37,398 nt of DNA from Tepidicaulis marinus (GTDB taxonomy: Bacteria > Pseudomonadota > Alphaproteobacteria > Parvibaculales > Parvibaculaceae), in NCBI RefSeq assembly GCF_000739695.1, contig NZ_BBIO01000022.1, positions 1-37,398 of the forward strand, written 5' to 3'. Made by a program: the position numbers and the translations under genes. This document shows positions 5,480-26,717 of the stretch, in pieces (within the stretch, counting starts at the first letter, position 1; each line of letters opens with the position of its first letter). The notes beneath the pieces were generated by a model. That model saw only the letters and a list, made by a program, of their open reading frames with translations, was not told the DNA's origin and ran no database searches.

Positions 5480-5504
5480 AGGCACCTGAAAAACGAGAGT
5501 TGCC

Positions 5505-6116
5505 ATGAGTCCCGCCGGCCCAATCAAAAAGAAAAGAACGCAGATTCTGGACGCCGCCGCGCATCTTTTTGCAACGCAGGGCTATTCCGGCACGAGCGTG
5601 GAAGAAATCGCCCGCCTCGCCAAAGTGGCAAAGCCCACGGTTTATAGTCATTTCGAGGGCAAGCGCGACGTGCTCGAAGCCTTGCTTCAAGCGCGCACGG
5701 AAGAAATGACGACCTATTTCAGCCAGCTTGAAATCAAGGGCGAGAGCCCGGAGAAGGTCGTGACCGCCATTATCGAGGTGATGGCGGACGTGCTCTCGCG
5801 CGAGGAAACGATCGGCATTTACCGCATGCTTGCCGTGGAAGGCGCGCGCGACCCGGAACTTGCCAAGGCCTATCTCGCCAAGGCGGAAAATTCCGTCGAG
5901 GTATGGATCGAAAGCTATCTCGCCAAACAGGCAAAAGCCGGGCAATTGCGCATCGAAGATCCGGCCTGGGCGACCTACACGCTCTTGCAGATGACCAAGG
6001 GCAAACTGATGTTCAAACCGCTATTCGGCCTCGCCAAGCCGCCGAGCAAGCGGGAGGTGAACAAGCATGTGCGCCAATGCGTCGCCTTCTTCCTCGATAT
6101 CTGGAAAGTCAGATAG
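5505..6116 (+). CDS. TetR/AcrR family transcriptional regulator
   Basis: A 203-aa one-component repressor. Residues 8-55 form the TetR DNA-binding domain: [19 protein letters not shown], then [27 protein letters not shown], with the expected T/Y recognition helix. The C-terminal part is an all-helical ligand domain with no diagnostic motif (it contains [21 protein letters not shown], a pattern common in TetR proteins with a C-terminal TetR_C_7-like domain). It is convergent with the RND pump gene and overlaps its 3' end by 8 bp. It is therefore not in the pump operon but sits directly beside it. Effector unknown. Confidence 0.85.
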
Positions 6117-9100
6117 TCTCTTTCGCCCGTTTCCGGCTGACCAATGTGAAAAGCCAGGGCACGAAGAGCGTCGCGATGAAAGTCGAGGCGAGCATGCCGC
6201 CGATGACGCCGGTGCCGATGGAATGACGGCTGGCAGCCCCCGCTCCGCTTGAAACGGCCAGCGGCACCACCCCCAGCACAAAGGCGAGCGAGGTCATGAC
6301 GATAGGCCGGAAACGCAGGCGCGCGCCTTCGATGGCCGCTTCCACAAGGTCCATACCTTCCTTCGATTTCATATGGGCGAATTCGACGATCAGAATGGCG
6401 TTCTTCGCCGAAAGCCCGATCAGCGTCACCAGGCCGATCTGGAAATAAACGTCATTATTCAGCCCGCGCAGCCAGACCGCGAGAATGGCGCCGAAAATCG
6501 CAAAGGGCACGGCAAGCACGACGGCAAGCGGCAGCGACCAGCGCTCGTAAAGCGCGGCCAGAATGAGAAAGACCATGAGAAGGCCCATGGCGAAGGCGAG
6601 AAAAGAGGAAGAGCCCACCATCTTTTCCTGATAGGCCGAGCCCGTCCAGGCAATGGAGAAATTGCCGGTGATGACTTCCGCTGCCACTTCATCGATGGCC
6701 GCCAGCGCTTCGCCGGAAGAATACCCTGGGGCGGGCGACCCCAGCACTTTGGCAGCCGGGAAGATGTTGAAGCGGTCGAGCTGCGAGACGCCGGCAATGC
6801 GTTCGGCTTTGACAAGTTCGTTGACCGGGATCATCTCGCCGCTTCCCGAGCGCACGAAGACCTGTTTCAGATCTTCCGCGCGCTGGCGGAAGGCCGTTTC
6901 CGATTGCAGATTGACCTTGAAGGTGCGCCCGTAAAGGGTGAAATCGTTCACATAGAGCGAGCCCACGGTGCTTTGCAGTGTCTCGAAGATCAGCGTCAGC
7001 GGCACACCGAGCGCTTTTGCTTTCTCCCGGTCGACGTCCAGCCGGTATTGCGGCACATCGGCGGAAAAGGTCGTCGCAACCTTGGCAAGCTCCGGGCGCT
7101 CATTCGCCTTTTCGACGAAGCGGTTCGCCATTTCCTGCAAACGCTCGAGGCCGCCGCCGGAGCGGTCCTGCACGTAAAGCTCGAAGCCGCCGGTCGTGCT
7201 CATGCCGCGAATGGGCGGCGGGTTGAGCGCGAAGATCGAGGCGTCCTTGATGTCGCTCATGAGCCCGACGAGACGGGGCGCAAGTTCCTCCGCCCCCTCG
7301 CCCGCGTCCGTGCGCTCGGACCAGTCTTTTAGGGTGACGAAGGAAACGAGACTGTCGGTCTTTTGCCCGCCTGCCGTCACATCGAAACCGGCAAAGGTCG
7401 TCACTTCATCGATTTCCCGCTGCGCCATAAGCCGCTCCGTCGCGCTGTTGGCGACCTTGATCGTGCGGTCGAGAGAGGCAGCGGGCGGCAGCGAACCCAG
7501 AACGAAAACATAACCCTGGTCTTCATTGGGAACGAGACTGCCGGGTACGCGCCAGAAAAGCGCCAGGGTCAGCCCCGCCACGACGCAAAATCCGATGGCC
7601 GCAATCACCTGCCGGTTGAGAAGCCAGGCGACACCGCGCGTATAAGCTTCGGTCAGTCTGTCAAAAGCGTCATTGAATTTATGAAAGAGCGGGTGCCCTG
7701 CCGTTTCATCCGCCGCGAGCAAAGCGCAGAGCGTCGGCGTCAAGGTCAGCGCGACGAAGCCGGAAATCGCGACGGAGACGGCGATGGTGATCGCAAATTG
7801 CTGATACATGCCCCCCGTCAGCCCGCCCATGAAGCCGACCGGCACAAAGACCGCGCAAAGCACGAGCACGATGGCGATGACGGGGCCCGACACTTCCTTC
7901 ATCGCCTTGATCGCCGCCTCGCGCGGGCTCAGCTTTTCGGTGCGCAGAATGCGCTCGAAATTTTCCAGCACCACGATCGCATCATCCACCACGATGCCGA
8001 TGGCGAGCACCATGCCGAAGAGCGTCAGAAGGTTGATGGAAAATCCGAGCAGATACATGCCCGCAAAGGTGCCGATAATGGAAACGGGAATGGCGAGCAG
8101 CGGAATGATCGTCGCGCGCACGCTTTGCAGGAATAGAAAGACCACCGCAATGACGAGGACGATGGCCTCGATCAAGGTCATGATCACTTCCTGGATGGAA
8201 ACTTCCACAAATTTCGTCGTGTCGAAGGGCACGGCAAAAGAGAGCCCTTCGGGGAAGTTGGCCGAAAGCGCATCCATGCGCGCATTGACCGCGCCTGCCA
8301 CATCGAGCGCGTTGGCGCCGGGTTGCATGAAAATGCCGATGGCAACGGAGGGCTTGCCGTTATAGGTCGCCTGAAAGGAATAGTCCTGCGCGCCAAGCTC
8401 GATGCGGGCGACGTCTTTAAGGCGCAAGGCTGCGCCCGTTTCATCGGAACGCAGAATGATATTGCCGAAGGCCTCGGGCGTCGTGAGGCGCGAGGGCGTG
8501 ATCACCGAATAGGTGAATTCTATCTCGCTCGATACGGGCTCGGCGCCGAAGCGCCCGGCGGCGAACTGCGCATTCTGCTCGCGGATGGCGGCGGCGACAT
8601 CGGTCGGCGTCAGCTCGAAACGCGCCAGAATATCCGGGCGCAGCCAGATGCGCATCGAATAGTCCTTGGCGCCGAAAAGGCGCACGTCGCCTACGCCCGG
8701 TACGCGCTTCAAATCATCCACCACATTGAGCAGCGCATAGTTGGAAATGAAGATCGGGTCATGCCCCTCGTTCGAGGAGGACATGGTGATCACTTCCAAA
8801 ATGGAGCTCGAACGTTTATCGACGCGCACCGCCTGGCGGCGCACTTCTTCGGGCAGGGTCGTCAGCGCGCGCTGCACGCGGTTATTCACATCGATGGTCG
8901 CCTGATCTGGATCGGTGCCGACTTCGAAGGTGATGGTGATGGAAAGATTGCCCGCGCTCGAACTTGTCGAAGACATATAGAGCATGCCTTCAACGCCGTT
9001 GATCTGCTGCTCGAGGGGCGCGGCCACGGTTTCGGCAATGACGCCGGCGCTTGCGCCCGGATAGCTCGCGGAGACCACGATCTGCGGCGGCACGATATTC

Positions 9101-9210
9101 GGGTATTGCTCGATGGGCAGCACGCGCATGGCCAGAAGCCCGACCAGCACGATGATGATGGAGAGGACGGAGGCAAAGACGGGACGGTCGATAAAAAATC
9201 GGGCGATCAT
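6109..9210 (-). CDS. RND multidrug efflux permease (HAE-1/AcrB-MexB type)
   Basis: A 1033-aa inner-membrane proton antiporter of normal family length. It starts [15 protein letters not shown], typical of AcrB relatives. The proton-relay aspartates are present in helix 4 (GIVVDD, residues 409-410), with the expected partner lysine in the later [16 protein letters not shown] segment. Large periplasmic porter loops follow helices 1 and 7. It would form a trimer exporting hydrophobic drugs, bile-salt-like compounds or solvents with its adaptor. Its ATG overlaps the adaptor's stop by 4 bp, so the two are translationally coupled. No TolC/OprM-type outer-membrane channel is in the window, so the channel must come from elsewhere. 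Confidence 0.95.
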
Positions 9211-10406
9211 TGCACAGCCGTTCCGCTTTCCTCTTCCGCCACTTTCTTTTGCGCGGCGGCGCCCGGCCCGTTGTCGATGACGACCTGCGTGCCCGGATGC
9301 ACTTTCACCACACCGTCGGTGACGATGCGTTCACCCGCCTTCAGGCCTGCCTTTATCACCCAGAGATCGTCCAGTTCCTCGCCCAGTATCACGGAGCGGC
9401 GGATGGCCTTATCGTCCTCGCCGATGACATAGACATAAGCGCCGTCAGCGGCCTGCATCAGCGCGCGCTTGGGAATGGCGATAGCGTCTTTGATGGTGAG
9501 GCCGGAGACAAGCAGCGTGACGAACTGGCCGGGCACGAGCACACCGTCCGGATTGCCGAGAATGGCGCGGGCGCGGATCGTGCCCGTGGAGGTGTCGACC
9601 GTGTTGTCGGTGAAATCCACATAGCCTTCCCCGGCATAATATTCGCCGCTGCCGAAACGCACGCGCACCGAATAACGCTCGTTTTCCGGCTCTTCGATGC
9701 GGCCCGAAACGATTTGCTGGCGCAAGGAGGCCGCTTCCGTCGCCGCATAGGAAAAGTTCACATAAACGGGATCGAGCTGCGTCATCGTGGTCAGCAGCGA
9801 ACGGTCGGGCCCGGTGCCGATCAGGCTGCCTTCGGAGACTTCCTCGCGGCCCGTCGCACCCGTGATCGGCGCGCGCACGGTCGTGTAGCTTAAGTTCAGC
9901 TCCGCCGTTTCCAGCTTCGCGGCGGCGTCCTGCACCAGGCTGCGGGCGGTTTCCAGATCCGCCAGCGCTTCGTCCCGGCGCTGCGCGCTCACCGTGCCTT
10001 GCTTGTGGAGCGAGCGGATACGCTCCCAGCTCCGCTCGGCGCGTTTCAGATTGGCCTTTTCCTGGCCCAGCCGGGCCTTGGCGCTTTCCAATTCGGACTC
10101 GTATGACGCCGGATCGATGAGAAAGAGCACATCGCCTTCCTTGACGACGCTGCCTTCCTGATATTCGCGCGACAGCAGAATGCCTTCGACACGCGCGCGC
10201 ACTTCGACGGATTTATAGCCCGCCACACGGCCTGGATATTCCATCACCAAGGGGCGCGAGAGCGCCTTGACCGTCTGCACGTCCACATGCGGCATGGGCG
10301 GGCCGTTTGCCTGATCGGCACCCTCCTCACACGCGGCAAGCAGGGGGAGGGCCAGAAGCAGCGCCGCGAATTTCGTCCGTTTCGACATTTTCCGATGGGG
10401 AGCCAT
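9207..10406 (-). CDS. RND efflux periplasmic adaptor lipoprotein (membrane fusion protein)
   Basis: A 399-aa MexA/AcrA-type adaptor. The N-terminus is a lipoprotein signal ending LPLLAAC (lipidated Cys 26). Next come the lipoyl half-motif ([32 protein letters not shown]), a helical hairpin (about residues 105-165), the second lipoyl half ([25 protein letters not shown]), and beta-barrel and membrane-proximal domains. It links the inner-membrane pump to an outer-membrane channel. ATG at 10406 is preferred because AGGAG lies 11 nt upstream; ATG at 10388 would also leave a good lipoprotein signal. First gene of a two-gene operon, divergent from the AcrR/TtgR-like repressor across an operator-bearing region. 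Confidence 0.93.
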
Positions 10407-14111: not shown

Positions 14112-14274
14112 TCCGGTCCGGCGGGGCGGTTTTACGGGAACAAATCACCCCATGCGCCGTTTTTCGCATGTCTATTCCCGCGCGGAGCCGGATAACCTAA
14201 ATTCGCCATAATCTGCGCATTGAGTGCGCGCCCGTCGCGGCCCGATTTGGGCCTGCCGCTATGAAGCTTGTGAC

Positions 14275-16959
14275 ATGAGCCCCAAGACCATCGCCCGCCG
14301 CCTGCCCAGCGCCCTGCGCATCGGCATTTTCCTTCTTATCGTCCTGCCGCTCATGATCGCGGCCAATATCGCCGTCTGGAGCGCCATCCATCAGCCGCGC
14401 AGCACGCAAGGCTGGACGGGCGAAATCGTGGGCTTTGCCTTCAGCCCCTTTCAGGCCGGGCAGAATCCGGAAGACCTGCTTTATCCGAGCGCGGAGGAAA
14501 TCCGCCGTGATCTGCAGGTGCTCGGCCCCAAAGCGCAAGCCATCCGCACCTATGAGACGGGCTACGGCTTCGACAAAATTCCCGAAATCGCGGCCGAGTT
14601 CGATCTTTCCGTTGCGCTCGGTGCCTGGATCGGGCGCAACGAGGCGCGCAACGAACAGGAGCTTGCCCGCCTGACCCCCACCGCCTTCCGGCGCAATGTG
14701 GTGCGCGTGGTGGTGGGCAACGAAGCCTTGCTGCGCCGGGACGTGACGGTGGACGAGCTCATTTCCTATATCCGCCGCGTCAAGAAGACCGTCTGGAAGC
14801 CGGTGAGCACCGCCGAGCCCTGGCATGTCTGGCTCGATCATCCCGAACTCGTCAAGGAAGTCGATTATCTGGCCGTGCACATCCTGCCCTACTGGGAAGG
14901 GGTGAGCGTGGATAAAGCCGTCGATTATGTGTTCGAGCGGATCGGCGATTTGAGAAAGGCTTACCCGGGCAAACCCATCGTGGTAACGGAAGTCGGCTGG
15001 CCGAGCCGCGGGCGCATCATCCCGCGCCAGAGCTTTGCGGGCATCAGCGAGGAGACGCTGGAAGAAGAAGCCGTTCCCTCCCTCGTCAACCAAGCCAAAT
15101 TCATGCGCACCTTCCTTAACCGGGCGAAGGAGGCGGAAATCACTTATTATGTGATGGAAGCTTTCGATCAGCCGTGGAAGGCGAATGAAGAGGGCGCGGC
15201 CGGCGGCTATTGGGGCATTTACGACGTCATGCGCGCGCCGAAATTCCCGATGTCGGGCGGCGTGGTCGAATATACCGACTGGCGCTTCTGGGCGGCCATT
15301 GCCGCCGGGCTTTCGCTCATCCCCGCCGTGCTTTTGCTGCTCGGACGGCGGCACATGCATCCGGCCGGGCAAATTTTCTTTGCCGCGCTCGTGCAGCTCG
15401 GCGGGGCGGCGATTGCCTGGTCGGCGCTCAGTTTCAGCGGCATTTATCTTACCCCCGGTCAGACGATTGCCTGGTCGGTGCTCTTTGCCGCGCAAGGGCT
15501 CCTGCTTGTCGTGCTGATCACCGAGGCCGTCGAGCTTGTCGAAGCGCTTTGGGGCCGCACCGGCAAACGGCATGAGGAACTGATCGCCCATCTCGGCCCG
15601 AATGCCGATCACCGGCCGAAAGTCTCCATTCATGTGCCGATCCATAACGAGCCGCCGCATATGGTGCGCGAGACGCTGGCCGCGCTCGCCCGGCTCGATT
15701 ATCCGGACTTCGAGGTTCTGGTGATCGACAACAACACCAAGGACCCGGAGGTTTGGAAACCGGTGGAGGCCGAATGCGCGCGCCTTGGCAAGCGCTTCCG
15801 CTTTTTCCATCTCGACCCCTGGCCGGGTTACAAGGCAGGCGCTCTTAACTTCGCGCGCAGCCAGACGGCGGAAGACGCGGACGTCATTGCCGTTATCGAC
15901 AGCGACTATCAGGTCTCGCCCGACTGGCTGAAAACGCTCTGTCCGCATTTTGCCGATCCCGATGTCGGCTTCGTGCAGGCCCCGCAGGATTACCGCGATG
16001 CGGGCCAGTCGCTTTTCAAGACCATGACCTATTGGGAATATGCCGGCTTTTTCCATATCGGCATGGTGCTGCGCGACCGCTATAACGCCGTCATTCAGCA
16101 CGGCACCATGACCATGGTGCGCAAAAGCGCGCTCGATGAAGTGGGCGGCTGGGCCGAATGGTGCATTTGCGAGGATGCCGAGCTCGGCCTCAAACTTTAC
16201 CGCGCAGGCTATGGCTCGGTTTACGTCAACCGCTCTTTCGGGAAAGGCCTGACGCCGGACACGCTCGGCGCTTATATGACCCAGCGCTTCCGCTGGGCCT
16301 ATGGCGCGGTACAAATCATGAAGCATCACATGCGCGCCTTCCTGCCGGGCAGCGGCGCCGGGCTCAATGCCGCGCAGAAATATTATTTCTTTGCCGGCTG
16401 GCTTCCCTGGTTCGCCGACGCGCTGGCGCTGGCCTTTACCGCCGCGAGCATTGCCGTTTCAGCCTTGGCACTCTGGTCGCCCGAAGCCATGCCGCTGCCC
16501 GTTGCCGCCTTCATGGTGCCGACCATCGGCAGTTTTCTTTTCAAGCTCATCCGCTCGCTCTGGCTTTACCTGCAGCGGGTGCGCTGCGGCCTCGGGCAGA
16601 GCCTCGGCGCGGCGCTTGCCGCCTTGGCGCTCACCCATACGGTCGCCAAGGCCGTTGCAATCGGCATTTTCACGAGCGGGCGGCCTTTCGTGCGCACACC
16701 CAAATGCGAGGACCGCGCCGCGCTCTCCGCCATCTTCATTCAGGTGCGCGATGAAGCGGTCGTGCTCGCCGTGCTTTGGGGCCTCGGTATCGCCTTTCTG
16801 TTGCACCCGATGTTCCAGGACTCGCTCTCGCGCCTCTGGGTCGCGGTGCTGGCCGTCCAGTCGCTGCCTTATCTCGCCTCGGTGCTCACCTCCATTATCA
16901 GCATCCTGGCGCGCGAAAGAGAAAGCGAGCCGGTAACGGCGCCTGTCGCCGGGGAATAG
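14275..16959 (+). CDS. ndvB: NdvB-like membrane beta-glucan synthase (GH17-GT2 fusion)
   Basis: An 894-aa membrane enzyme. Order: TM1 (about 15-37); a periplasmic GH17 glucanosyltransferase-like domain (50-335) with acid/base Glu 150 in VVVGNE and nucleophile Glu 239 in VTEVGWPS; three TM segments (337-425); a cytoplasmic GT2 domain with DSD (542-544), ED (633-634) and QRFRW (670-674); then C-terminal TM helices. The same fusion occurs in proteobacterial NdvB proteins making periplasmic beta-1,3-glucans, where the GT2 domain polymerises glucose from UDP-glucose and GH17 branches or cyclises the chain. Such glucans affect osmotic adaptation, symbiosis and biofilm drug tolerance. The ATG at 14275 is chosen over GTG 14224 because TM1 then sits normally near the N-terminus. 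Followed by a strong terminator. Confidence 0.85.
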   Translation: MSPKTIARRLPSALRIGIFLLIVLPLMIAANIAVWSAIHQPRSTQGWTGEIVGFAFSPFQAGQNPEDLLYPSAEEIRRDLQVLGPKAQAIRTYETGYGFDKIPEIAAEFDLSVALGAWIGRNEARNEQELARLTPTAFRRNVVRVVVGNEALLRRDVTVDELISYIRRVKKTVWKPVSTAEPWHVWLDHPELVKEVDYLAVHILPYWEGVSVDKAVDYVFERIGDLRKAYPGKPIVVTEVGWPSRGRIIPRQSFAGISEETLEEEAVPSLVNQAKFMRTFLNRAKEAEITYYVMEAFDQPWKANEEGAAGGYWGIYDVMRAPKFPMSGGVVEYTDWRFWAAIAAGLSLIPAVLLLLGRRHMHPAGQIFFAALVQLGGAAIAWSALSFSGIYLTPGQTIAWSVLFAAQGLLLVVLITEAVELVEALWGRTGKRHEELIAHLGPNADHRPKVSIHVPIHNEPPHMVRETLAALARLDYPDFEVLVIDNNTKDPEVWKPVEAECARLGKRFRFFHLDPWPGYKAGALNFARSQTAEDADVIAVIDSDYQVSPDWLKTLCPHFADPDVGFVQAPQDYRDAGQSLFKTMTYWEYAGFFHIGMVLRDRYNAVIQHGTMTMVRKSALDEVGGWAEWCICEDAELGLKLYRAGYGSVYVNRSFGKGLTPDTLGAYMTQRFRWAYGAVQIMKHHMRAFLPGSGAGLNAAQKYYFFAGWLPWFADALALAFTAASIAVSALALWSPEAMPLPVAAFMVPTIGSFLFKLIRSLWLYLQRVRCGLGQSLGAALAALALTHTVAKAVAIGIFTSGRPFVRTPKCEDRAALSAIFIQVRDEAVVLAVLWGLGIAFLLHPMFQDSLSRLWVAVLAVQSLPYLASVLTSIISILARERESEPVTAPVAGE

Positions 16960-17947: not shown

Positions 17948-19591
17948 TTAAAAACAGGCCTCTGACGCCCGCACAAGCCCGAAGCCGAAGACCGGGTCAT
18001 ATCCCGGCGCGCCCAAATCTTCCGCATGGGCCTTGAGCTGCCCGCGGATATAAGAAAGCGGATCGGCTTTGGCCTCTGTCGGGGCCGCGCTCATGAGCAC
18101 CGCGCCAAGAACGAGCACGAAAGGCGCGGCATAAGAGGTGCCTGAGCGATAGCTGCCGCCGCCTTGCGCTTTCGCCAGCCAGATATCGACGCCGGGCGCG
18201 GCAAAGTCGATATAGGCGCCCCGATTGGCTTTCACGTAAATCCGCCGTGCCGCATCGATGGCCGTTACCGCGATCACGCTTTCATAAGCGGCCGGATAGG
18301 CAGGCGGCGCTTCCGGTCCTTCATTGCCCGCCGCGGCAACAAAAAGCACGCCTCGGCGCGCGCTATAAGAAAGCCCTTCTTCCAGCAGCCTGTTCGGCGG
18401 CCCGGCAAGGGAAAGGTTCACATAGCGCACCTGGCGGGCCATCAGCCAGTCGAGCGCAGTGAGGAACCGCGCCGCACTTGCCTCCGCCGCCTCCGGCGGG
18501 CCGATGAAAATATCCGCCGCATAAAGCCGCGCGCCGGGCAGAAGCCCCTGAAATCCCGTCTCCGGTTTTCCCTGGCCGATGAGAAGCGCGGCAATGCCCG
18601 TGCCATGATCGCTGCCTTGCCCGCCGCCTTCACCGGAAAAATCGCCAAGGGTGAGACCTGCCGCCCCGCTCAATGCCGGATGGGCGCCGTTCACGCCGTC
18701 ATCGATCATACCGAAAGCCGCGGCGCCATGAGCGCCCGCTGATGTCGGGCATGCCGGGTTTTCCCAGCCGATCAGGTCCGGCGCGAAAAGTTTCGGTCCT
18801 GCTGAAAGACCGTAGAGATGATTGAAGTCCGTTTCCGCGTCAGGGAATGTGCGGCGCAGTTCCTCCCGCGCGTCACCAAGCGAGGTACCTTCCTTCGGCA
18901 GAACGATAAAAAGCACGCGGCCAAGCGCCGGAAGCAGGATGCGCTCGCGCAGGTCAAAACCATCGGCGATAAGCTGCGCTTCAACACGCGCGCCTTCTTC
19001 TTCCTGCACCATCAAAATGAGATCGCGGGCCGTCCCTTCCCCGCCCCAGCCTATGGCCGCCGCCCGGGCGCAGGCGGTGAGCCGGGCAACGGATTGCGCG
19101 CCTTGAATATGGGCCGGCACATGAGACGGCGCGCTCAAAAGACCGGTACGGGCTTTCAGCAGTAAAATCTCATAGCCCGCCCCGGGCGTGAGCGCGGCAC
19201 CGGCGGGAATACGCACCAAGGCCTGCCCCTCCTGACGGCTGAGCTCATCGAGCGGCAAAAGCGCGCTGCCATCCCAAAGCGCGAGCTTCCGCTCCCGCGC
19301 TGCCGCACCCTGCAGGGCCGCGCCCGTGAGGGTGAGGATTTGCCCCGGCGCCGCGCAGCCGCGCAAGGAAGGCAGGGCGGGCGGAGGCGCGGGCTGCGAG
19401 GGGGATACAGGCTGAGACAGCGGCGGCGGGGCGGCGGGGCTGAGCCCGCCCCGCTGCGGTGCAGGCGTGCCCGGCGCAGGCGTGCCGGCGGGCGCGGGCG
19501 CACTTTGGCGAGGCGGTTCCTGCGCCTGCAAAGTGGCCGCGGAAAGTACCGCCACAAGCAGCACGCCAAGAATGATCCTGATTCCGCTCAT
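17948..19591 (-). CDS. Secreted S8 (subtilisin-family) serine protease of the ECF operon
   Basis: A 547-aa exported protease. Order: signal peptide (1-23), Pro/Ala-rich linker (25-75), an IPT/TIG-like beta domain (78-145), a prodomain-like alpha/beta region (about 188-262), then the S8 catalytic domain with Asp 297 (GMIDDG), His 329 (SDHGTGIAALL), oxyanion Asn 423 (AAGNEG) and Ser 486 (RSGTSYAAP). All catalytic residues are kept, so it should be active in the periplasm or outside. Its ATG overlaps the anti-sigma stop by 4 bp (19588-19591), making it the last of five coupled genes. Its place in the operon suggests that it processes the anti-sigma factor or envelope proteins rather than scavenging nutrients. 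Confidence 0.9.
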   Translation of the reverse strand: MSGIRIILGVLLVAVLSAATLQAQEPPRQSAPAPAGTPAPGTPAPQRGGLSPAAPPPLSQPVSPSQPAPPPALPSLRGCAAPGQILTLTGAALQGAAARERKLALWDGSALLPLDELSRQEGQALVRIPAGAALTPGAGYEILLLKARTGLLSAPSHVPAHIQGAQSVARLTACARAAAIGWGGEGTARDLILMVQEEEGARVEAQLIADGFDLRERILLPALGRVLFIVLPKEGTSLGDAREELRRTFPDAETDFNHLYGLSAGPKLFAPDLIGWENPACPTSAGAHGAAAFGMIDDGVNGAHPALSGAAGLTLGDFSGEGGGQGSDHGTGIAALLIGQGKPETGFQGLLPGARLYAADIFIGPPEAAEASAARFLTALDWLMARQVRYVNLSLAGPPNRLLEEGLSYSARRGVLFVAAAGNEGPEAPPAYPAAYESVIAVTAIDAARRIYVKANRGAYIDFAAPGVDIWLAKAQGGGSYRSGTSYAAPFVLVLGAVLMSAAPTEAKADPLSYIRGQLKAHAEDLGAPGYDPVFGFGLVRASEACF

Positions 19592-20202
19592 TCGATTTCC
19601 ACCGACTGTATGAGCGTCTCCTTGGCGGCAAGGACGGCGCGCAGCTCTTCAAGCGCCTGCGCCTGCGCGCCCCGCTGCGCCAGCCGGTAGACGCCGAGCG
19701 CCGAGGGGCCTTCCACGATTTCAAGATCATGCTCCAGAAGCAGCGCGCGGATTTCGCCTTCGGCGGCACTCGGCTCGAAGATGACCTGCAGCGTGCCTGC
19801 TTCGCTGAGGCCCGCCGTCCGGTAACTTCCTTCTTCTCCGGTTATACGTGCGGCGGTAAAGCCGGTGATAACCGCAAGCGCCAAAGAAGCGGCCACGGCA
19901 AAAGCGCGCCCGGCTTTGGGCAACGCGGCAAAGGAAAAACCGTTTCCGGCATCCTGCTTCTCGGCGCGGATATCGCGCAGGAGCCGCTGCAGGCCCATGG
20001 CGCCAGGGCTCATCATATCTTCCGCGCCCTCGCTCACCCCGCTTTTGAGGGCTTTGAGAAACGCTTCTTCGGCCTTGGCGGCCTCGCGCGTTTCTTCATC
20101 CGCCAGAAGCGCCGCTGCCACTGCCTTCTCTTCCTCGCTCGCCGTGCCGATTACGGCAGCGGCGAGCCAGTCTTCTTCTTCGCGTGTCAGGTCCCGTGTC
20201 AT
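19588..20202 (-). CDS. Membrane anti-sigma factor of the ECF operon
   Basis: A 204-aa protein. Residues 1-95 are a cytoplasmic, charged, helical region of the size of an anti-sigma domain (starts MTRDLTREEEDWLAAAVIG), without the HxxxCxxC zinc motif. One TM helix follows (97-119), then a small periplasmic domain (135-204) with strand-helix-strand-helix-strand layout: LQVIF, helix to HDLEI, VEGPSALGVYRL, helix QALEELRAVL, LIQSVEI. Identification rests mainly on topology and on direct overlap with the ECF sigma gene (ATGA at 20199-20202). It should bind the sigma factor at the membrane and release it on a periplasmic signal. The periplasmic domain resembles a peptidase prodomain in layout. Confidence 0.8.
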   Translation of the reverse strand: MTRDLTREEEDWLAAAVIGTASEEEKAVAAALLADEETREAAKAEEAFLKALKSGVSEGAEDMMSPGAMGLQRLLRDIRAEKQDAGNGFSFAALPKAGRAFAVAASLALAVITGFTAARITGEEGSYRTAGLSEAGTLQVIFEPSAAEGEIRALLLEHDLEIVEGPSALGVYRLAQRGAQAQALEELRAVLAAKETLIQSVEIE

Positions 20203-20765
20203 GCCGCTTCTCCCAATAGCAAGCCAAGGCATTTCTTCATGGCCTGCTTGGCATGATAGACGCGGGTCTTGATGGTGCCTTCCGGGCGGTCCATCACCTC
20301 GCCGATGCGGGCGTAGGAAAGCTCCTCGAAAAATGCCATATGCAGCACGAGGCGCTGCACATCCGGCAATTTGTCGAGACAGGTTTTCACATGGGCCGCT
20401 TCCTGCGCGCTTTGGAGAATATCCGCCGCGCCCGGGCCCTCATCGGCAATCTCGAAAGCTTCGTCATCGAGCGCCACATGCTGGCCCTTCTTCTTGCGAA
20501 GCCGGTCCACGGTTTTGTGAAATGCGATGCTCATCAACCAGGTGCTCACTTTCGATCGTCCTTCAAACTTACCGGCCTTGCGCCATACATCCATGAAGAT
20601 CTCATGGAGTATGTCGGCCGCTTCGTTCGGATCGTTCAATTTGGAGCGGATAAAAGCGAAAAGACGTTTCTCGAACGTCTCGTAAAGGGCCGCAAATGCC
20701 TTCTCATCGCCCGCGGCAATACGGGCGATGAGAAAACGTTGGCGATCTTCCTCGCTTTGGGACAT
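20199..20765 (-). CDS. ECF-type RNA polymerase sigma factor
   Basis: A 188-aa two-domain sigma-70 family protein. Region 2 runs from FAALYETFEKRLFAFI through DILHEIFMDVWRKAGKF to STWLMSIAFHKTVDRLRKKK, and region 4 from CLDKLPDVQRLVLHMAFFEELSYARIGEVM to PEGTIKTRVYHAKQAMKKCL. Region 3 is absent, as expected for ECF factors. ATG at 20765 is chosen because AGGAGG lies 4-5 nt upstream. The gene follows the Ig/Fn3-like protein by 36 nt and overlaps the anti-sigma gene by 4 bp. It is unusual for an ECF gene to lie third in an operon behind its likely envelope clients. It probably drives this operon and perhaps the divergent secreted protein. Confidence 0.92.
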   Translation of the reverse strand: MSQSEEDRQRFLIARIAAGDEKAFAALYETFEKRLFAFIRSKLNDPNEAADILHEIFMDVWRKAGKFEGRSKVSTWLMSIAFHKTVDRLRKKKGQHVALDDEAFEIADEGPGAADILQSAQEAAHVKTCLDKLPDVQRLVLHMAFFEELSYARIGEVMDRPEGTIKTRVYHAKQAMKKCLGLLLGEAA

Positions 20766-20801
20766 GTGCCCTCCTGGCCGAAGCAGCCTCAAAAGCCCCG
20801 G

Positions 20802-22067
20802 TCAAGGCGCCTTGAAGAAGCGCAGCGGCGAGCGGGCGATGACGCGGCCCCCGCCATCGATGGCCCGCACGCGCCAGCGGTAGGTTTCGCCCGGCTCAAG
20901 TCGGGCAAAGCTGATATCGGAGAGCCTCGTGCGGCTCGCCGTCCCCGGCACGAGCTTGCCGGCGGCAAGCGGCGTGTCGAGATCGAAGGCGCCAAGCAGA
21001 AGCTCCGCAGAAGCCGGTGCCCGCATGCCCGCGCTCGCCCCATCCGGGGCAAGGGGGAAGATTTCCACCTGATAGGCCTCGGCCCCGGCGGCAGGTTCCC
21101 AGGCGAAGATCGTGGCGGGCGTCACGCGCGTGCCTTCATCCGGCCCGATCAGCGAAATCTCACCCAGCACCCGTCCGCCTTCTTCCGGCGAGATGTAATA
21201 GCGCAGGCGCGGCAGATCGAAATTCAGCACCGGGCGGCGCACCACAAGGCGCACTTCATAAAGGCCGGCCATGTCATCGGGAAGTTTCGGGCTGAGAAGG
21301 CGCACCTGGCCGCGCCCGGCGCTTGAAAGCTGCTGGCGCACGATGCCGAGGCTGCGCTCGAAATTGCCGCCGCCTTCAACGCGCGCCGCGCGCCATTCCG
21401 CTTCCAGAATGCCCGAGGAGGTATAAGCGATCTCGGCCACGACACGCGGGCCCGCGCCCGTGTTGAAAATACCCGTGCGGCTGCCATCCTCGAAGGAAAG
21501 CTCGATGCGCCGGAGCGAAAGCGCGCCTTGCGCATTACCGCTGACGCTGAGCGCGGCATTGCCGCTTGCCGCCGAGCCGAAGGCGCCGACCGCAGGCGCC
21601 GTGCCTACATCGGTAAATTCCCGCACGATCAAAGCCGGCCCGCTTGCCCGGGCGATCTGCCGGGCGATTGCCGGGGTGATCATCAGCGTTTCACTGAAAC
21701 TCAAGGTTTCCGGCGTGCCGACGGGGGGATTGGAGACTTGCTGAAGCAAGCCGGGCAGCACGGCAATGCGGTTGCCGCCCGCCCAGATTTCCGCCTGGGC
21801 GGAACGCACCGTGCTCGGCTGGCCGCCGGTGCGGGGGCCGAGGCGCTGCACCGTCCAGTTGACAGTCACCGCGCCGCCGCCCGTTGCGGGCACGGCGGCA
21901 GGCAGTGCCGCGGCGCTCACGCTCGTCACTTCCGCCTCGGCGCGCGTGCCGAGCAGAGCCAGGACGACGAGCGCGCCCAAAAGCGCGCGCAGCACAAAAC
22001 CGCCCGCCTTAGCGGTAACGGACAGGGGCCTGGATGCGGAAGACCGCATAGGTTTCATATCGCGATT
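20802..22067 (-). CDS. Secreted protein with C-terminal Ig/Fn3-like domain, ECF operon
   Basis: A roughly 421-aa exported protein of no family I recognise. A basic N-region and a long hydrophobic core end in LLGTRAEA-E, a good signal peptidase I site. The middle (about 45-300) is rich in beta-forming segments and looks like CARDB/Ig-type adhesive or structural modules. The C-terminal 110 residues (ISLIGPDEGTRVTPATIFAW, then YQVEIF, then RLEPGETYRWRVRAIDGGG) follow the fibronectin-type III pattern. The start is uncertain: ATG at 22067, 22055 or 22046 all lie inside the last 60 bp of the barrel gene in another frame, and no strong ribosome site is seen, implying translational coupling. Likely periplasmic or surface partner of the barrel protein. 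Confidence 0.65.
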   Translation of the reverse strand, partial: NRDMKPMRSSASRPLSVTAKAGGFVLRALLGALVVLALLGTRAEAEVTSVSAAALPAAVPATGGGAVTVNWTVQRLGPRTGGQPSTVRSAQAEIWAGGNRIAVLPGLLQQVSNPPVGTPETLSFSETLMITPAIARQIARASGPALIVREFTDVGTAPAVGAFGSAASGNAALSVSGNAQGALSLRRIELSFEDGSRTGIFNTGAGPRVVAEIAYTSSGILEAEWRAARVEGGGNFERSLGIVRQQLSSAGRGQVRLLSPKLPDDMAGLYEVRLVVRRPVLNFDLPRLRYYISPEEGGRVLGEISLIGPDEGTRVTPATIFAWEPAAGAEAYQVEIFPLAPDGASAGMRAPASAELLLGAFDLDTPLAAGKLVPGTASRTRLSDISFARLEPGETYRWRVRAIDGGGRVIARSPLRFFKAP

Positions 22068-24129
22068 CATTGTCGGTTGGTGCTGTATAGCCATTATTCG
22101 TCTCCACCGCGCCGCGCAAAGCAAGGGATAGACGAGGCCGCGTCTCGCTCGCCTCTTCCAGGATCCATTCCAGCTCGCCGGACAGAACGTTTCTGTCAGG
22201 TGTGTCGCCGCCGCCGGTCAGAAGGTTCAAATTATAGTTCAGCGCGCCGTTAAGCGTGCCGGGAATGATTTCCGCATCGATATTGGCCAGCCAGTTCACC
22301 TGGCGGCTGGTGCGGGCGCTTTGCCGTTCTTCATAAATGCCGAATTGCAGTCCGCTCGTCAGGTTCAGCCGGTCACTCACCGCCCAGGAAGCGGAAATGT
22401 CGGTCAAGTCGTTGCGCGTATCGGAAAGCGCATCGGTGCGGTCTTCATAAACACTGTGGGTCTGGGTCAGCCCCCAGCTCCAAGGTCCGTAGTAAGAGCC
22501 GATCCCGCCATAAACGGTCCAGGTGTCGTTATCCGTATCGGGACCCTGATAGCCAATCGGCGTTTTGTCCCGGTCGATGCGCCCGCCCGATGCGCCGAAT
22601 GTGAGATAGGGCTCGCCAAGCCAGGCAAGCTCCTCCTCATTCTCCCGCTCGATCTGCGGATAATAGGTGCCGCTCAAAGAGAGAAAACGCAGCCGCTCGG
22701 TCGGCAGGCCCGCCAGCCCGTCCACATTGTTGGTTTCATCACGGGCGGAAAAGTTGAGCGACATGCCGCCCGATTGGAGCTGGGCGAAGGCGCTCGCCCC
22801 TTCCTTATCCGCTGCCACGCCCGGATTACCGAGACTGCCGAAGAACGTGTCGATCTCGTACCAGTCCGCGCCCACGATCAGCGAGACCGGATCATCGCCC
22901 CAGGAGGTGCCGCGCAGCACATCGTAAGAGGCGCTGAGGAGCGTCGCCGAGGCGCTTTCTTCGGCAAGAGCGCCCTGGCCGTCCTCATCGAGGTTGGAGC
23001 GGGCATGTTCGCCCGCCAGCATCAAGCGCCCGTCCAGCCAGCGGGTTTCAAGACGGCCCGACCAGCCGTCCCCTTCGCCTGCCGTGCTCAAAGCTTCTTC
23101 CCCTTCCCCGAGCGGGGTGACGGAAAAATCCTGCGCTTCCTCGCCCGTATAATAAATGCCGGAAAGTTTCACCGTGCCAGGGCCGAGATCGAGCGCGCCG
23201 GTGCCGAGCGTGAAACCGCGCAAATGGCCCGAGCGCGACTGCTGGCCCAAAGGATCGCGCCCGCCAACCAGCGCTTCATCGGCAACGGAAAAAGCGGAGG
23301 CTTCAAGCCCGCCATCAAAACCCGAGACCCAGGCGGAAACGCCGCGGCGGAAATAATTCGACATGATAAGCGAACCCGTGGCGGGGCCATGATGACCAAG
23401 ACGCAGGCCCGCCTTCAGACCGCCCGCCCCTTCCTCATCGCCGACGACGATATCGGCAAGATATTCGCCCGCATCGAGCACATTGCCCGTCAGCGAGAGC
23501 GCTTTTTCCGATTCCAAAAACGCATTGCCCGAAAAGCTGACCGAAACCCGGCCCTGCTGCGCCTCAAGCGCCAGCTGCGCAGCGCCCGAGAGCGCAGTCG
23601 GATCGGAGGAACGGGTGAGATTGTTGCTGGCAAGGCGGCGCCGGGCTTCCACATCCACCTGGCCCACAAGCGTCAGGTCGAGCGGGGAGGCACCTTCACC
23701 TTCCGGGCCGGCGCCCTGCGGGCCGCCCACTTCCACCTCCCATTCCCCCAGCACAAGCGGGGGCTCATCCTTACGCAGTTCATAAAGCCGCAGCGTGTGC
23801 GTGCCGGACGTGAGCGGGGAGACCGGCGCGTAAACAAGGCCGCTGCCGGAGATCGACAGGAGATCGGAAACATCCACCCGGTCGATCTCCAGCGCGAAGC
23901 GGCCCTGAAAATTTGAAATGACATCGGCGGAGAGCGCAAAGCGCAGCGGCTCGTCCGGCGCGTAGACAGTGCCCGCTTGCGGCGGAGCAAGCTGCGTCCC
24001 CTCCGCCATCGCCTGCCCCGAAAAGAAAAGAAGGGACACGCCTATCAGCGCCGCTTTGGCCCGGTTTTTCCGGAAAATCAGCCCTTTCCGTCCCGTGCGC
24101 TCATACAACTCGCTCACAAATCCGCTCAC
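22009..24129 (-). CDS. Outer-membrane beta-barrel-like protein with N-terminal Ig-like domain, ECF operon
   Basis: A 706-aa exported protein, first of the five-gene operon. The signal peptide is long and cleaves near FFSGQAMA-E (residue 42). Residues about 45-145 look like a beta-sandwich (PLTSGTHTLRLYEL, VLGEWEVEV). From about 155 on the sequence alternates short amphipathic strands with Gly/Asn/Asp turns (e.g. LSLSGTYYP, YGGIGSYYGPWSWGLTQTHSV, LNLTSGLQFGIYEERQ), as in large outer-membrane barrels. It ends in VRYR and not the usual terminal Phe, which is a caveat. No TonB plug or secretin motif is seen. Function unknown; it may be a porin-like channel or surface scaffold monitored by the sigma/anti-sigma pair. 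Confidence 0.65.
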   Translation of the reverse strand: MSGFVSELYERTGRKGLIFRKNRAKAALIGVSLLFFSGQAMAEGTQLAPPQAGTVYAPDEPLRFALSADVISNFQGRFALEIDRVDVSDLLSISGSGLVYAPVSPLTSGTHTLRLYELRKDEPPLVLGEWEVEVGGPQGAGPEGEGASPLDLTLVGQVDVEARRRLASNNLTRSSDPTALSGAAQLALEAQQGRVSVSFSGNAFLESEKALSLTGNVLDAGEYLADIVVGDEEGAGGLKAGLRLGHHGPATGSLIMSNYFRRGVSAWVSGFDGGLEASAFSVADEALVGGRDPLGQQSRSGHLRGFTLGTGALDLGPGTVKLSGIYYTGEEAQDFSVTPLGEGEEALSTAGEGDGWSGRLETRWLDGRLMLAGEHARSNLDEDGQGALAEESASATLLSASYDVLRGTSWGDDPVSLIVGADWYEIDTFFGSLGNPGVAADKEGASAFAQLQSGGMSLNFSARDETNNVDGLAGLPTERLRFLSLSGTYYPQIERENEEELAWLGEPYLTFGASGGRIDRDKTPIGYQGPDTDNDTWTVYGGIGSYYGPWSWGLTQTHSVYEDRTDALSDTRNDLTDISASWAVSDRLNLTSGLQFGIYEERQSARTSRQVNWLANIDAEIIPGTLNGALNYNLNLLTGGGDTPDRNVLSGELEWILEEASETRPRLSLALRGAVETNNGYTAPTDNESRYETYAVFRIQAPVRYR

Positions 24130-24136
24130 CCCCTGT

Positions 24137-24162
24137 TACGCGCTCGGTTTGTTTGTCGTTCA
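24137..24162 (-). promoter_or_regulatory. ECF-like promoter motif toward the sigma operon (tentative)
   Basis: On the minus strand TGAAC is followed after 17 nt by CGTA (GAAC at 24161-24158, CGTA at 24140-24137), matching the GAAC...CGT logic of many ECF promoters. The -10 element lies only 7 nt before the annotated ATG at 24129 and overlaps its AGGGGG ribosome site. The real transcript would therefore need to be leaderless or start translation later. Confidence 0.3.
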
Positions 24163-24243
24163 CAGGAGCCCAAAGGTGAATGGAGCAAAACTACTCTATC
24201 GGCGCAGGCGGGCGCAGGGAGTATCCCTGAGAGAAGAAATTTT

Positions 24244-24268
24244 GAACCTTGCGGGCCGGCGGCGCGAC
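24244..24268 (+). promoter_or_regulatory. ECF-like promoter motif toward the divergent secreted protein (tentative)
   Basis: TGAAC (GAAC at 24244-24247) is followed after exactly 17 nt by CGAC (24265-24268), the same spacing as the motif on the other strand of this intergenic region. It would give a leader of about 50 nt before the ATG at 24324. The -10 element is a weaker match than CGT. Confidence 0.3.
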
Positions 24269-24323: not shown

Positions 24324-25808
24324 ATGTCTAAGTTCACGCATGCAGCCCTGGCTGCCTCCATCGCCCTCGCCGCCAGTATCTCACCTGCCGCCGCGGGCAA
24401 CATGATCGTGCAGGACGGCGTCCAATCGGTGGACCTGACCCCGGCACAGACGGTTTACACCGTCGAACTCAAGGAAATGTCCGACGGCACCAACATCAAC
24501 GCCGCAAACGTTCAGGTTCTTACCGACAAAGTGACCTTCCGCGCCAGCGGCATGCTGGTATGCGAGAAGATTTCGGGCATTCGTCCGAACGCCCCCTTGG
24601 GCGCGTATATCGGCTTTGGCGCCTTCAACCCGACCTTCGGCGATGCCGGCGTCGTTCACAAAGCGGAATTCGAAACCGGTCAGAAATATTACAACAACTC
24701 TCAGAACAGCTGGGTCAACCATCCGGCGACGGTCGAAAATTGGGAAGTTCCGCTGAACAGTTTGAAGAATGCGGGCAAACCCACCTATGAGTTCGATGCC
24801 CTGAAAATCTTCAACGCCGAGATGCAGAAATTCATCGACAATGGCGGCACGAAGCTGGATTTCCTCAAGCAGGACCGCGTGATCGAAGTCGAGCGTTTCC
24901 TCAGCGTTTATACAGGCTGCAGAAAGCTGAACGGGCAGCTTGAGGTAACGAAGCTCGGCTACGGTACCGACGTCGAGCCCATCACCATGAAGATCAAGTA
25001 CAAGGGCAATCCGAACCTGCTCAATCCTATCGCTGTCGCCGTCGCGCCGGGTGACAACAATCAGATCGATGCCGGCTACCAGCCGCTGAAGATCACCTAT
25101 GCGGCGATCACGCCCTACGCGCCGACATATGTCGGCAAGTGCCCGGCCAACCTCAAGTTCCGGGTGCAAATCAAAGGCCAGGGCAAGGGGCACGTCAAAT
25201 TCCGCGTGCATGGCAAGTCGGATGAAAGCTGGCTGACCGAGAACATGACGCAGGTCTACGAATCGGGCCCGCGGATTTTCAATGCGGCCGAAGGCGGCAC
25301 GGACACGAACTTCTTCTATGAAGTTCCCTTCTCCGGCCAGGACGTACTCAACAAAACCATCAACCACCAGTTCCGCCTCGCCATTACGTGGAAGGACGAG
25401 AAGGCGAATACATATGAAACCCACTACCAGACCTTCGCCACGAAGGATTGGAAACGCCGCTGCACCCCGCAGGTGAATGTCGGTGTGGGCGGCGGCAATC
25501 CGGGCGGCATGAGCTATGACAACGGTCCGGGCGCCAATAATGCCGGGAGCCTGAATATCCAGGCGCAGCCCGTAGCGCCCAGCCTGCAAAAGGCTGCTCC
25601 CGCCGCCGCACAGCGCGGCGAGGCGAAACCCGCCCGCGCCCCGGCCGCACAGGCCCCGGCTCGCGCCACAACACCCGCTCGGGCCGCCCCTGCCCCGGCG
25701 GCCCCTGCCCCTGCCCGTGCGGCCCCGGCGCGGCAGACGGAGCCTGCCCCCACGCTCCAGGTCGCCCCGCTTACGGCAGAGCCCGCCCCCGCCCGCTCTG
25801 CCCGCTAA
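24324..25808 (+). CDS. Large secreted protein with Ala/Pro-rich C-terminal tail, unknown function
   Basis: A 494-aa protein that I cannot assign to a family. The N-terminus is a clear signal peptide (MSKFTHAALAASIALAASISPAAA-G). The mature part (25-410) is mixed beta with four cysteines (MLVCEK, YTGCRK, VGKCPAN, KRRCTP), enough for two disulfides. The segment from ITPYAPTYVGKCPANLKF to HYQTFATKDWKRRC looks like a repeat-free Ig-type domain. Residues about 420-494 are low-complexity Ala/Pro/Arg and resemble a wall- or envelope-spanning tether. ATG at 24324 is used, since the upstream start at 24282 would place residues before the signal. It is divergent from the ECF operon and ends at a strong terminator, so it is monocistronic. 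Confidence 0.65.
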   Translation: MSKFTHAALAASIALAASISPAAAGNMIVQDGVQSVDLTPAQTVYTVELKEMSDGTNINAANVQVLTDKVTFRASGMLVCEKISGIRPNAPLGAYIGFGAFNPTFGDAGVVHKAEFETGQKYYNNSQNSWVNHPATVENWEVPLNSLKNAGKPTYEFDALKIFNAEMQKFIDNGGTKLDFLKQDRVIEVERFLSVYTGCRKLNGQLEVTKLGYGTDVEPITMKIKYKGNPNLLNPIAVAVAPGDNNQIDAGYQPLKITYAAITPYAPTYVGKCPANLKFRVQIKGQGKGHVKFRVHGKSDESWLTENMTQVYESGPRIFNAAEGGTDTNFFYEVPFSGQDVLNKTINHQFRLAITWKDEKANTYETHYQTFATKDWKRRCTPQVNVGVGGGNPGGMSYDNGPGANNAGSLNIQAQPVAPSLQKAAPAAAQRGEAKPARAPAAQAPARATTPARAAPAPAAPAPARAAPARQTEPAPTLQVAPLTAEPAPARSAR

Positions 25809-25891: not shown

Positions 25892-25967
25892 CCCTTCCCA
25901 CCCCTTAGACTTCACACAAGAGTGAGCGATGCGCACGCCCATTTGCTGCCTGATGCGAGAGGGCTTG

Positions 25968-26717
25968 ATGTTTCAGGACACAGGTACGTTTGCCCTGCTT
26001 GAAAAGCTGCATACCCAAAGCGGGTTTCCGGCACTCTGGCAGACTTTCCGCACCCATATGGAAGAACGCTTCGGTTTCGGCACCGGCTATTACGGCGTGC
26101 TGGTTCTGCCGAACCATGAGGAAAACCGATTCCTGCCGCAGATGCGTAATTATTGCGATTTTCCCGAAGACTACCTCACGCATGTGCAAGAGGAAAAACC
26201 GCTCTGGGAAGCGGACCCCATCCTGCCTCATTGCCTGACGACGGGAGAGCCCGTCTCCTGGCGTACCTTGCGGCCTAAAACGCTCGAGCACGAATATGGA
26301 AGCGAGCTTTTGTCGGTCAATCACGACCTCGGCCTGCATAACGGCTTTGCCGTGCCCGTGGAGGGCCGCAACAAGAAATCCATGATCGGCCTGCATGCCC
26401 CTTATATGAGCGATAAAGATTTCGATGCGCTGATCGCCTCGCACGGGCGGGAAGTAACCGAATGTTTCAAGCTCATTCATCATGCCGTCGAAGCGGATGA
26501 AGAGCGCTATGCCCCGCTTGTCGGCCTGACACCGCGCGAGAAGGAATGTCTTTTATGGTCGGCGGCGGGACTTTCTTCCAAACGCATTGCCTTCAAACTC
26601 AGTCTCTCGCACCGAACTGTCGAAAATTGCCTTTTCAGAGCCCAGCGCAAACTCAAAGCGACCAACAAAAGCCATGCCGTCTATAAAGCCGTGGTGCTCG
26701 GCCTGATCCAGCCATAG
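25968..26717 (+). CDS. LuxR-family solo regulator with AHL-receptor-like domain
   Basis: A 249-aa regulator. Residues about 10-165 resemble the autoinducer-binding domain: FGFGTGYYGV, then DFPEDYLTHV, ADPIL and PVSW. Residues 185-245 are the LuxR HTH (LTPREKECLLWSAAGLSSKRIAFKLSLSHRTVENCLFRAQRKL). By alignment to LasR, the ligand-amide Asp (here Asp 83) and Trp (Trp 98) are kept, but Tyr56, Trp60 and Tyr64 appear as Phe 65, Tyr 69 and Val 73. No LuxI synthase is in the window, so this is a solo whose ligand may not be a standard acyl-homoserine lactone. ATG at 25968 is preferred (GAGAGG 6 nt upstream); ATG 25929 is also possible. No operator could be identified. Confidence 0.85.
   Translation: MFQDTGTFALLEKLHTQSGFPALWQTFRTHMEERFGFGTGYYGVLVLPNHEENRFLPQMRNYCDFPEDYLTHVQEEKPLWEADPILPHCLTTGEPVSWRTLRPKTLEHEYGSELLSVNHDLGLHNGFAVPVEGRNKKSMIGLHAPYMSDKDFDALIASHGREVTECFKLIHHAVEADEERYAPLVGLTPREKECLLWSAAGLSSKRIAFKLSLSHRTVENCLFRAQRKLKATNKSHAVYKAVVLGLIQP

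Follow-up and report, generated by a model that had tools for sequence, protein, structure and literature searches.

To our knowledge, how anti-sigma factors sense signals in the periplasm is understood for a few systems only. In the RpoE/RseA/DegS/RseP pathway, an extracytoplasmic function (ECF) sigma factor is paired with a single-pass anti-sigma factor, and the site-1 role falls to the inner-membrane protease DegS with its PDZ domain (as described in the accessible part of PMC8103513). At ECF26 loci a serine protease gene lies in divergent orientation; in the S. meliloti pair RpoE6/EcfR6 this gene, SMa0142, is a sigma target, and an intragenic sigma-dependent promoter has been suggested inside rpoE6 (accessible part of PMC6180224). 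The ECF54 group has subtilases in its gene context and, in the accessible part of PMC8999054, no anti-sigma factor; there, proteolytic enzymes were proposed to control sigma activity. ECF26 and ECF54, as far as these excerpts describe them, are partial precedents for the system analysed here, a five-gene operon in a 37,398-nucleotide stretch of Tepidicaulis marinus DNA (contig NZ_BBIO01000022.1, positions 1 to 37,398; hereafter the window). The operon encodes an ECF sigma factor, a membrane anti-sigma factor, an exported S8 subtilase, an outer-membrane barrel and an Ig/Fn3-like protein, and is flanked by a divergent gene for a secreted protein of unknown family, here called DIV.

Like the RpoE/RseA pathway, the window system combines an ECF sigma factor, a single-pass anti-sigma factor and a periplasmic serine protease as proposed site-1 protease, and its genome likewise holds an M50 homologue. 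It differs in that the protease is an exported S8 subtilase of the same operon rather than DegS, in that the anti-sigma factor bears a predicted prodomain-like domain, and in that no RseB-like gene is among the five. With the ECF26 pair it shares an alphaproteobacterial setting, a nearby serine protease gene and a suggested intragenic promoter; in the excerpted text of PMC6180224, however, SMa0142 is described just as a 'serine protease', the anti-sigma C-terminal domain is likened to RsiW and not to a prodomain, and the promoter consensus is GGAATA/GT, compared with TGAACC/CGAC here. Membership in ECF26 was rejected on this motif, the conserved site being TGAACC-N16-CGAC and not a -35 GGAATA with a -10 GT. 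ECF54 resembles the window system in encoding a subtilase in the sigma neighbourhood and differs from it in the anti-sigma factor. Given these two contexts, so far as the excerpts show them, the sequence-only reading of this DNA went too far in stating that site-1 proteases are normally encoded elsewhere. Among the titles and abstract starts of the open-licence literature, we found neither a description of a subtilase prodomain-like domain within an anti-sigma factor nor one of this gene set.

We lean towards an autoregulated ECF circuit in which a dedicated protease docks on, and most likely makes the first cut in, the anti-sigma factor, thereby controlling surface proteins. Computation provides the gene set, the intact catalytic residues, the predicted prodomain-like fold, the anti-sigma/S8 linkage and the conserved promoter-like sites. 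The features concerned are as follows.

19588-20202, minus strand: membrane anti-sigma factor gene (204 aa), with a helical anti-sigma domain, a transmembrane (TM) helix at residues 96-120 and a periplasmic C-terminal domain
19591-19791, minus strand: subtilase-prodomain-like periplasmic domain of the anti-sigma factor (residues 138-204; hereafter the C-domain)
17948-19591, minus strand: exported S8 subtilase gene (547 aa)
18737-19030, minus strand: prodomain-like segment of the subtilase (residues 188-285), which precedes the catalytic domain and has profile similarity to the anti-sigma C-domain
20199-20765, minus strand: ECF sigma factor gene (188 aa), assigned by Pfam and NCBIfam
20802-22070, minus strand: gene for the Ig/Fn3-like exported protein (422 aa), with weak fn3 and Ig_Rha78A_N matches
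22009-24129, minus strand: barrel gene, for a 706-aa outer-membrane protein with an N-terminal domain at about 50-134 and a predicted barrel at 151-705
24324-25808, plus strand: DIV gene, for a divergent secreted protein and predicted sigma target
24241-24268, plus strand: ECF-type promoter-like site TTTGAACC-N16-CGAC upstream of DIV
22204-22231, minus strand: the same promoter-like site inside the barrel gene, at its 3' end, as the predicted promoter of the Fn3-like, sigma, anti-sigma and subtilase genes
24137-24162, minus strand: weaker site TGAAC-N17-CGTA directly upstream of the barrel gene, also found in the relative L034

The AlphaFold model of the anti-sigma factor (overall pLDDT 77, pTM 0.38) contains helices at residues 7-84 and 96-120, the latter being the TM helix, and this predicted combination of a helical N-terminal domain with one TM helix is that of a class I type membrane anti-sigma factor. 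The zf-HC2 family was matched in 17 of 32 homologues (E up to 1) and had no match in the window protein. In the C-domain, a block of high pLDDT (87-95, residues 141-204) is modelled as strand-helix-strand-strand-helix-strand, the β-α-β-β-α-β arrangement of subtilase prodomains, which unrelated families have too. A Foldseek search with the C-domain returned the EpiP subtilase at ranks 1-2 and 4-7 (E 0.037-0.078), and, at lower ranks, propeptides of subtilisins together with ORF2, the chaperone for a serine protease of Aeromonas. As determined by VIA-align, from whose lists a missing structure was not counted as absent, the C-domain superposes on EpiP residues 31-89 (Z 7.7, rmsd 2.1, 59 aligned), the PC1/3 prodomain (Z 7.8, rmsd 4.3, 72 aligned), POIA1 (Z 7.4, rmsd 2.8, 64 aligned) and pro-subtilisin E (Z 7.2, rmsd 2.4, 61 aligned). 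Sequence evidence independent of these fold matches comes from the Pfam family PF22148 (Fervidolysin_NPro-like), which was matched in 6 of the 32 homologues (E up to 1, best 1.4e-5); the anti-sigma factor of locus L110 passes its curated cut-off with 24.7 versus 21 bits over residues 145-210 of 217. In agreement, profile-profile comparison of the C-domain with the S8 pre-catalytic segment gave local P values of 1e-4 and, with more sequences, 3e-5 (global, 8e-4 and 8e-5), compared with local values of 0.34-0.42 for two control pairs. We conclude that the C-domain is probably a homologue of subtilase prodomains, a likeness that the window protein alone would not have revealed.

The C-domain also tends to occur beside an S8 gene. 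While the window anti-sigma sequence alone matched in 9 of 289 genomes of the class, a search with the anti-sigma alignment matched in 16 of 385 class genomes and 29 of 398 phylum genomes; a plasmid search with the anti-sigma factor gave no match. Profiles of the anti-sigma N-domain, the C-domain, the S8 catalytic domain and the sigma factor were run on the loci of the anti-sigma matches, and the loci were sorted by hand with each gene counted once (L105 and L106 repeat genes of L101 and L103). Both C-domain and S8 were present in 34 of the 45 loci, the C-domain only in three (L104, L124, L125), S8 only in three (L113, L122, L130) and neither in five (Fisher P 0.002). Four of the 34 (L088, L089, L090, L093) had themselves been part of the search alignment; their removal left 30, 3, 3 and 5 loci (P 0.003), and with one entry per genus in addition, the counts were 17, 3, 3 and 4 (P 0.05), so that 17 of 20 domain-bearing entries had S8. 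Counted by genome, an S8 gene lay within the fetched stretch in 15/16 of the class, 23/29 of the phylum and 36/43 distinct genomes. As a rough control, 35 loci that had been retrieved for other purposes, several of them in or beside the operon, included one with S8; this single locus, L073, lies directly downstream of a five-gene operon. The specific partnership of protease and anti-sigma factor that had been suggested from the sequence is thus supported both by the prodomain-like domain and by its co-occurrence with S8 genes.

The arrangement of this core varies. Anti-sigma and S8 genes occur together in 38 loci. In two of these, L096 and L112, the anti-sigma gene is on the opposite strand from both sigma and S8, so that the genes do not form one operon; in L117 and L118 the S8 gene is on the sigma side. 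No fused anti-sigma/S8 reading frame was present among the 47 anti-sigma loci. An Fn3 match was found in 7 of these 47, whose flanks of 1.5 kb are too short to reveal a barrel gene, and the core loci L032 and L033, read with 14-16 kb, contain neither a barrel nor an Fn3-like gene; these two genes are therefore not obligatory to the sigma/anti-sigma/S8 core. Upstream of the core in L033, positions 5053-6444 encode a TPR protein that weakly resembles the N-terminal TPR domain of Slam, scoring below the cut-off.

A second line of evidence concerns regulation. A two-block motif search of the regions that precede barrel, DIV and split anti-sigma genes yielded TGAAC-N17-CGAC/CGTC, which was present upstream at 10 of 10 DIV loci, 3 of 3 split anti-sigma genes and 2 of 20 barrel genes (two more have CGTA); the total of 15/33 (shuffled mean 0.06, maximum 2) was counted on the discovery sequences and is not independent. 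The DIV set leaves out the DIV gene of L047, which starts at base 56, and the second DIV copies of L041 and L048; L031 and L035 duplicate L041 and L034, and several of the ten loci come from one genus, Kiloniella. A genome scan revealed the site within the barrel gene, at 22231-22204 on the minus strand. In tests that ignore kinship among the rows of the barrel alignment, exact TGAAC-N17-CGAC occurs in 17 of 17 rows, against an expectation of 0.84 when this stretch is recoded synonymously, and synonymous conservation (10 representative rows of the 17) peaks at the site at 0.48, compared with a mean of 0.07 (s.d. 0.11, 156 windows) and a best value of 0.18 elsewhere in the gene. The codons AAT and TTG are each kept in 16 of the 17 aligned genes (ATG replaces TTG in one) and AAC in all 17; the codon preceding the invariant GAC ends in C in 17/17, coding Gly, Asn, Ser or Asp. 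In L028, L030 and L046 the barrel protein has Met for Leu, and TGAAC is still kept.

Of the 28 S8-linked loci that have no neighbouring Fn3 gene, 13 (from 7 of the 17 genera) carry GAACC-N15-17-CGAC at the start of the sigma frame or immediately before it, compared with a mean of 0.33 and a maximum of 4 in shuffles; the count was made from open-frame starts in hand-sorted groups, with the region upstream of L107 cut by the contig. Directly upstream of Fn3-linked sigma genes the motif was found in 0 of 7, consistent with a promoter lying in the barrel gene. Judged by its sequence, the TGAAC-N17-CGAC site looks like an autoregulatory promoter of this sigma family that, in loci with the five-gene layout, sits inside the barrel gene, and the motif evidence suggests that the sigma factor probably regulates its own genes, as the sequence-only reading had supposed.

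Besides the prodomain-like domain and the promoter-like site in the barrel gene, that reading missed DIV, which belongs to the system; its start at 24324 is favoured by the relative L034. Ten DIV genes were found in 7 of 10 genomes, and eight of them have the motif directly upstream; five of the eight were already in the discovery set, so the fresh count is 3/5. The DIV gene of L144 lacks the motif, and that of L145 lacks it directly upstream. In relatives, the motif also precedes, in examples chosen by eye, DIV paralogues (L061, L075, L082) and other exported-looking open reading frames (ORFs; L072, L073, L076, L086). At locus L140 of genome G352, three similar TTTGAAC-N17-CGAC sites precede ORFs of 202, 441 (DIV) and 380 aa, the first and third of them also exported-looking, which suggests a set of co-regulated secreted proteins. 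DIV is accordingly listed here as a predicted sigma target. Directly downstream of it, at 25929-26717 on the plus strand, lies a gene for a LuxR-type regulator with an autoinducer-binding domain.

Several points weigh against the proposed circuit. Its support is wholly computational, and the contact between protease and anti-sigma factor is inferred. A mitoribosome protein tops the VIA-align list of the C-domain (Z 8.1, rmsd 2.1, 68 aligned), the unrelated NikR (Z 7.4), acetohydroxyacid synthase (7.3) and Lrp/AsnC (7.1) equal the prodomain scores, ferredoxin-like folds are common, and the Foldseek E-values are 0.037 or worse. The window anti-sigma factor itself has no PF22148 match in Pfam, and hhalign probabilities for the profile comparison are 57-72% local and 10-34% global. 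The anti-sigma/S8 link is strong in proportion and only borderline once relatedness is removed; the count was hand-sorted and includes related genomes and the four search-alignment rows, and outside the class S8 lay in the fetched stretch in only 7 of 13 genomes. The strict motif occurs six times in the window genome versus five for the backward control, with four of the six inside other mechanical ORFs, and 32 versus 22 times in five other genomes together; a genome-wide regulon from the strict motif alone was rejected as unsupported, the counts being near the backward controls. Finally, classical propeptides insert a tail into the protease active site. The predicted structure of the window C-domain stops at the last strand without such a tail, and inhibition or cleavage via that route is therefore uncertain; in the model, the missing tail argues against a tight inhibitor and not against docking.

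The same features bear on the main rival, in which the direction is reversed. Here the anti-sigma domain would be a membrane-tethered inhibitor or folding chaperone and the protease the effector, with sigma freed by another site-1 protease or by titration of the protease. This would fit the presence, among the fold matches, of the stand-alone prodomain-like inhibitor POIA1 (1v5i) and the chaperone ORF2 (3wqb), which share the predicted fold and the proposed subtilase docking with the window domain but are not, like it, fused to a membrane anti-sigma factor. It would also fit a protease gene within an operon that is predicted to be sigma-driven. However, a prodomain-like segment is apparently already present in the subtilase itself, so that no second one should be needed for folding, and the window C-domain lacks the active-site tail of propeptides. 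We regard this reversal as unlikely, although it deserves serious attention.

Still less probable, in our view, is that the subtilase is just one of sigma's targets, with a role in maturing DIV and other envelope proteins, and that the anti-sigma domain is an unrelated ferredoxin-like sensor of a small molecule or peptide. The equal Z scores of unrelated ferredoxin-like folds would allow this, and the ECF26 sigma factor RpoE6 activates a neighbouring serine protease gene, according to the excerpted PMC6180224. Against it stand the PF22148 matches in 6/32 homologues, the profile similarity between anti-sigma factor and S8 protein, and the distribution of S8, which is absent in 5 of 8 loci without a detected domain versus 3 of 37 with it (per genus, 4/7 versus 3/20).

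A profile search of genome contigs with the barrel alignment identified 17 loci, of which 16 are checkable, the contig of L051 stopping directly past the barrel match. Genes for the Fn3-like protein, sigma and anti-sigma accompany the barrel in 16/16 and the subtilase in 15/16; the exception, L039, is a contig that ends before the subtilase position. The order barrel-Fn3-sigma-anti-sigma-subtilase is kept in 13/16 (in L039 as far as the contig reaches), and in L038, L042 and L050 about 4 kb separates the barrel from the anti-sigma/subtilase pair, which is upstream of it. DIV occurs in 9 of the 16. The barrel-bearing lineages include Kiloniella, Sneathiella, Denitrobaculum, Curvivirga, a Micavibrio metagenome-assembled genome (MAG), Rhodospirillales MAGs and one MAG of the Chromatiales, a gammaproteobacterial order. 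The gene set is thus conserved far beyond close relatives, as the sequence-only reading required. The notion that an ordinary ECF pair was inserted by chance among envelope genes is scarcely credible and was rejected: within the window's family, the barrel was indeed found in no searched genome other than that of the window and one congener (2/37 family genomes; 2/61 searched), but the same order in 13/16 loci across several alphaproteobacterial genera and a Chromatiales MAG, and the promoter-like sites common to the loci, speak against it. Large VWA/RTX or RTX-repeat proteins adjoin the operon in a Kiloniella locus (L031:10492-14901) and a Rhodospirillales MAG (L037:15114-17567), a possible surface or adhesion context.

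ORFs and DNA bear out the five minus-strand genes, with the boundaries and coupling given earlier. In the 5' to 3' order barrel, Fn3-like, sigma, anti-sigma and subtilase, the junctions are a 62-bp overlap (59 without the stop codon), a 36-nt gap and overlaps of 4 and 4 bp. Pfam agrees with the ECF sigma and S8 subtilase identities: Sigma70_r2 (7.5e-14) and Sigma70_r4_2 (1.6e-12) are both above cut-off in the 197-aa frame used for the run (the favoured start gives 188 aa), as is TIGR02937, and the subtilase matches Peptidase_S8 (PF00082) at 8.9e-27. The subtilase is laid out as signal peptide, Pro-rich linker, TIG-like segment (in 2 of 6 homologues), prodomain-like segment and catalytic domain. 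Its catalytic D297, H329 and S486 and the oxyanion N423 are invariant in alignments of 6 and 16 proteins, and because they are kept in 16/16, the enzyme should be active. The Fn3-like label is right in that homologues match fn3, but the match is weak, with E 0.047 in the window protein and 1.1e-4 at best among 17 homologues, of which ten matched fn3 and nine Ig_Rha78A_N (E up to 0.5). N-terminal signal peptides were read by eye in the barrel, Fn3-like, subtilase and DIV proteins.

The predicted structure (pLDDT 73, pTM 0.63) likewise bears out an envelope barrel, with about 26 long strands by hand count at 151-705. Its nearest solved structures are MtrB (Foldseek E 4e-8) and FimD; by VIA-align, FimD scores Z 16.9 (rmsd 5.6, 361 aligned) and MtrB Z 15.6 (rmsd 6.4, 468 aligned), while many unrelated porins reach Z 13-15. 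These model-based matches support 'barrel' but would fit a channel, an usher-like pore or another function alike. In chaperone-usher systems the usher barrel has 24 strands with a plug, accessory domains and a chaperone, compared with about 26 predicted strands here. The window barrel, Fn3-like and anti-sigma proteins have no significant match in Pfam or NCBIfam (for the barrel, no Pfam match at all), DIV has none in either, the barrel and Fn3-like proteins have nothing in PHROGs, and profiles of the DIV, Fn3-like and barrel proteins found no significant sequence match in the PDB (the lowest E-values were 0.53 with DIV and 0.88 with the barrel). Elsewhere in the window, a family-2 glycosyltransferase with a weak, below-cut-off GH17 match is encoded at 14224-16959 (plus), in the same order in the congener (L034:3990-6725), and genes for an RND efflux pump (ACR_tran) and an HlyD-like membrane-fusion protein, with a 4-bp overlap, lie at 6109-10406 (minus).

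In the circuit that we favour, the helical domain of the anti-sigma factor would hold sigma in the cytoplasm, a single segment would cross the inner membrane, and the prodomain-like domain would reside in the periplasm. The exported, co-encoded S8 protease would recognize the C-domain as it would a prodomain, bind the anti-sigma factor and then cleave it in a site-1 step. Most likely an RseP-type site-2 cleavage would subsequently free sigma; the genome holds a Peptidase_M50 homologue, as do all 14 control genomes. Sigma would transcribe its own operon from the promoter within the barrel gene end, and matching promoters would serve the DIV-family genes. The probable role of the barrel and the Fn3-like protein is to handle or anchor DIV proteins, and the availability of the protease would report on surface assembly; the signal, we guess, may be unassembled DIV or barrel protein that competes for the protease. 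The sequence-only reading had hypothesized that damage to the envelope, or a barrel that is misassembled, would free the protease. Binding, cleavage, the direction of control, the signal and the functions of barrel and DIV are what we infer in this scheme.

More tentatively, and with somewhat less than even confidence, we propose that these loci represent an ECF class in Pseudomonadota that uses a protease prodomain as its sensor. The anti-sigma factor would be a tethered mimic of the cognate prodomain, so that transcription directly registers whether the protease is free or occupied by unassembled surface proteins; outputs would differ between lineages. The outputs attached in the window lineage would be the barrel of about 26 strands, its Ig-like partner and the secreted DIV proteins, with the autoregulatory promoter overprinted on barrel coding sequence.

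A prodomain-like domain beside a matching protease offers a concrete and testable sensor mechanism, and for this sigma family the TGAACC-N16-CGAC site could serve as a reporter. Its copy conserved within the barrel gene clearly exemplifies regulatory-looking DNA in coding sequence, and DIV and the barrel may together form an undescribed surface-assembly system.

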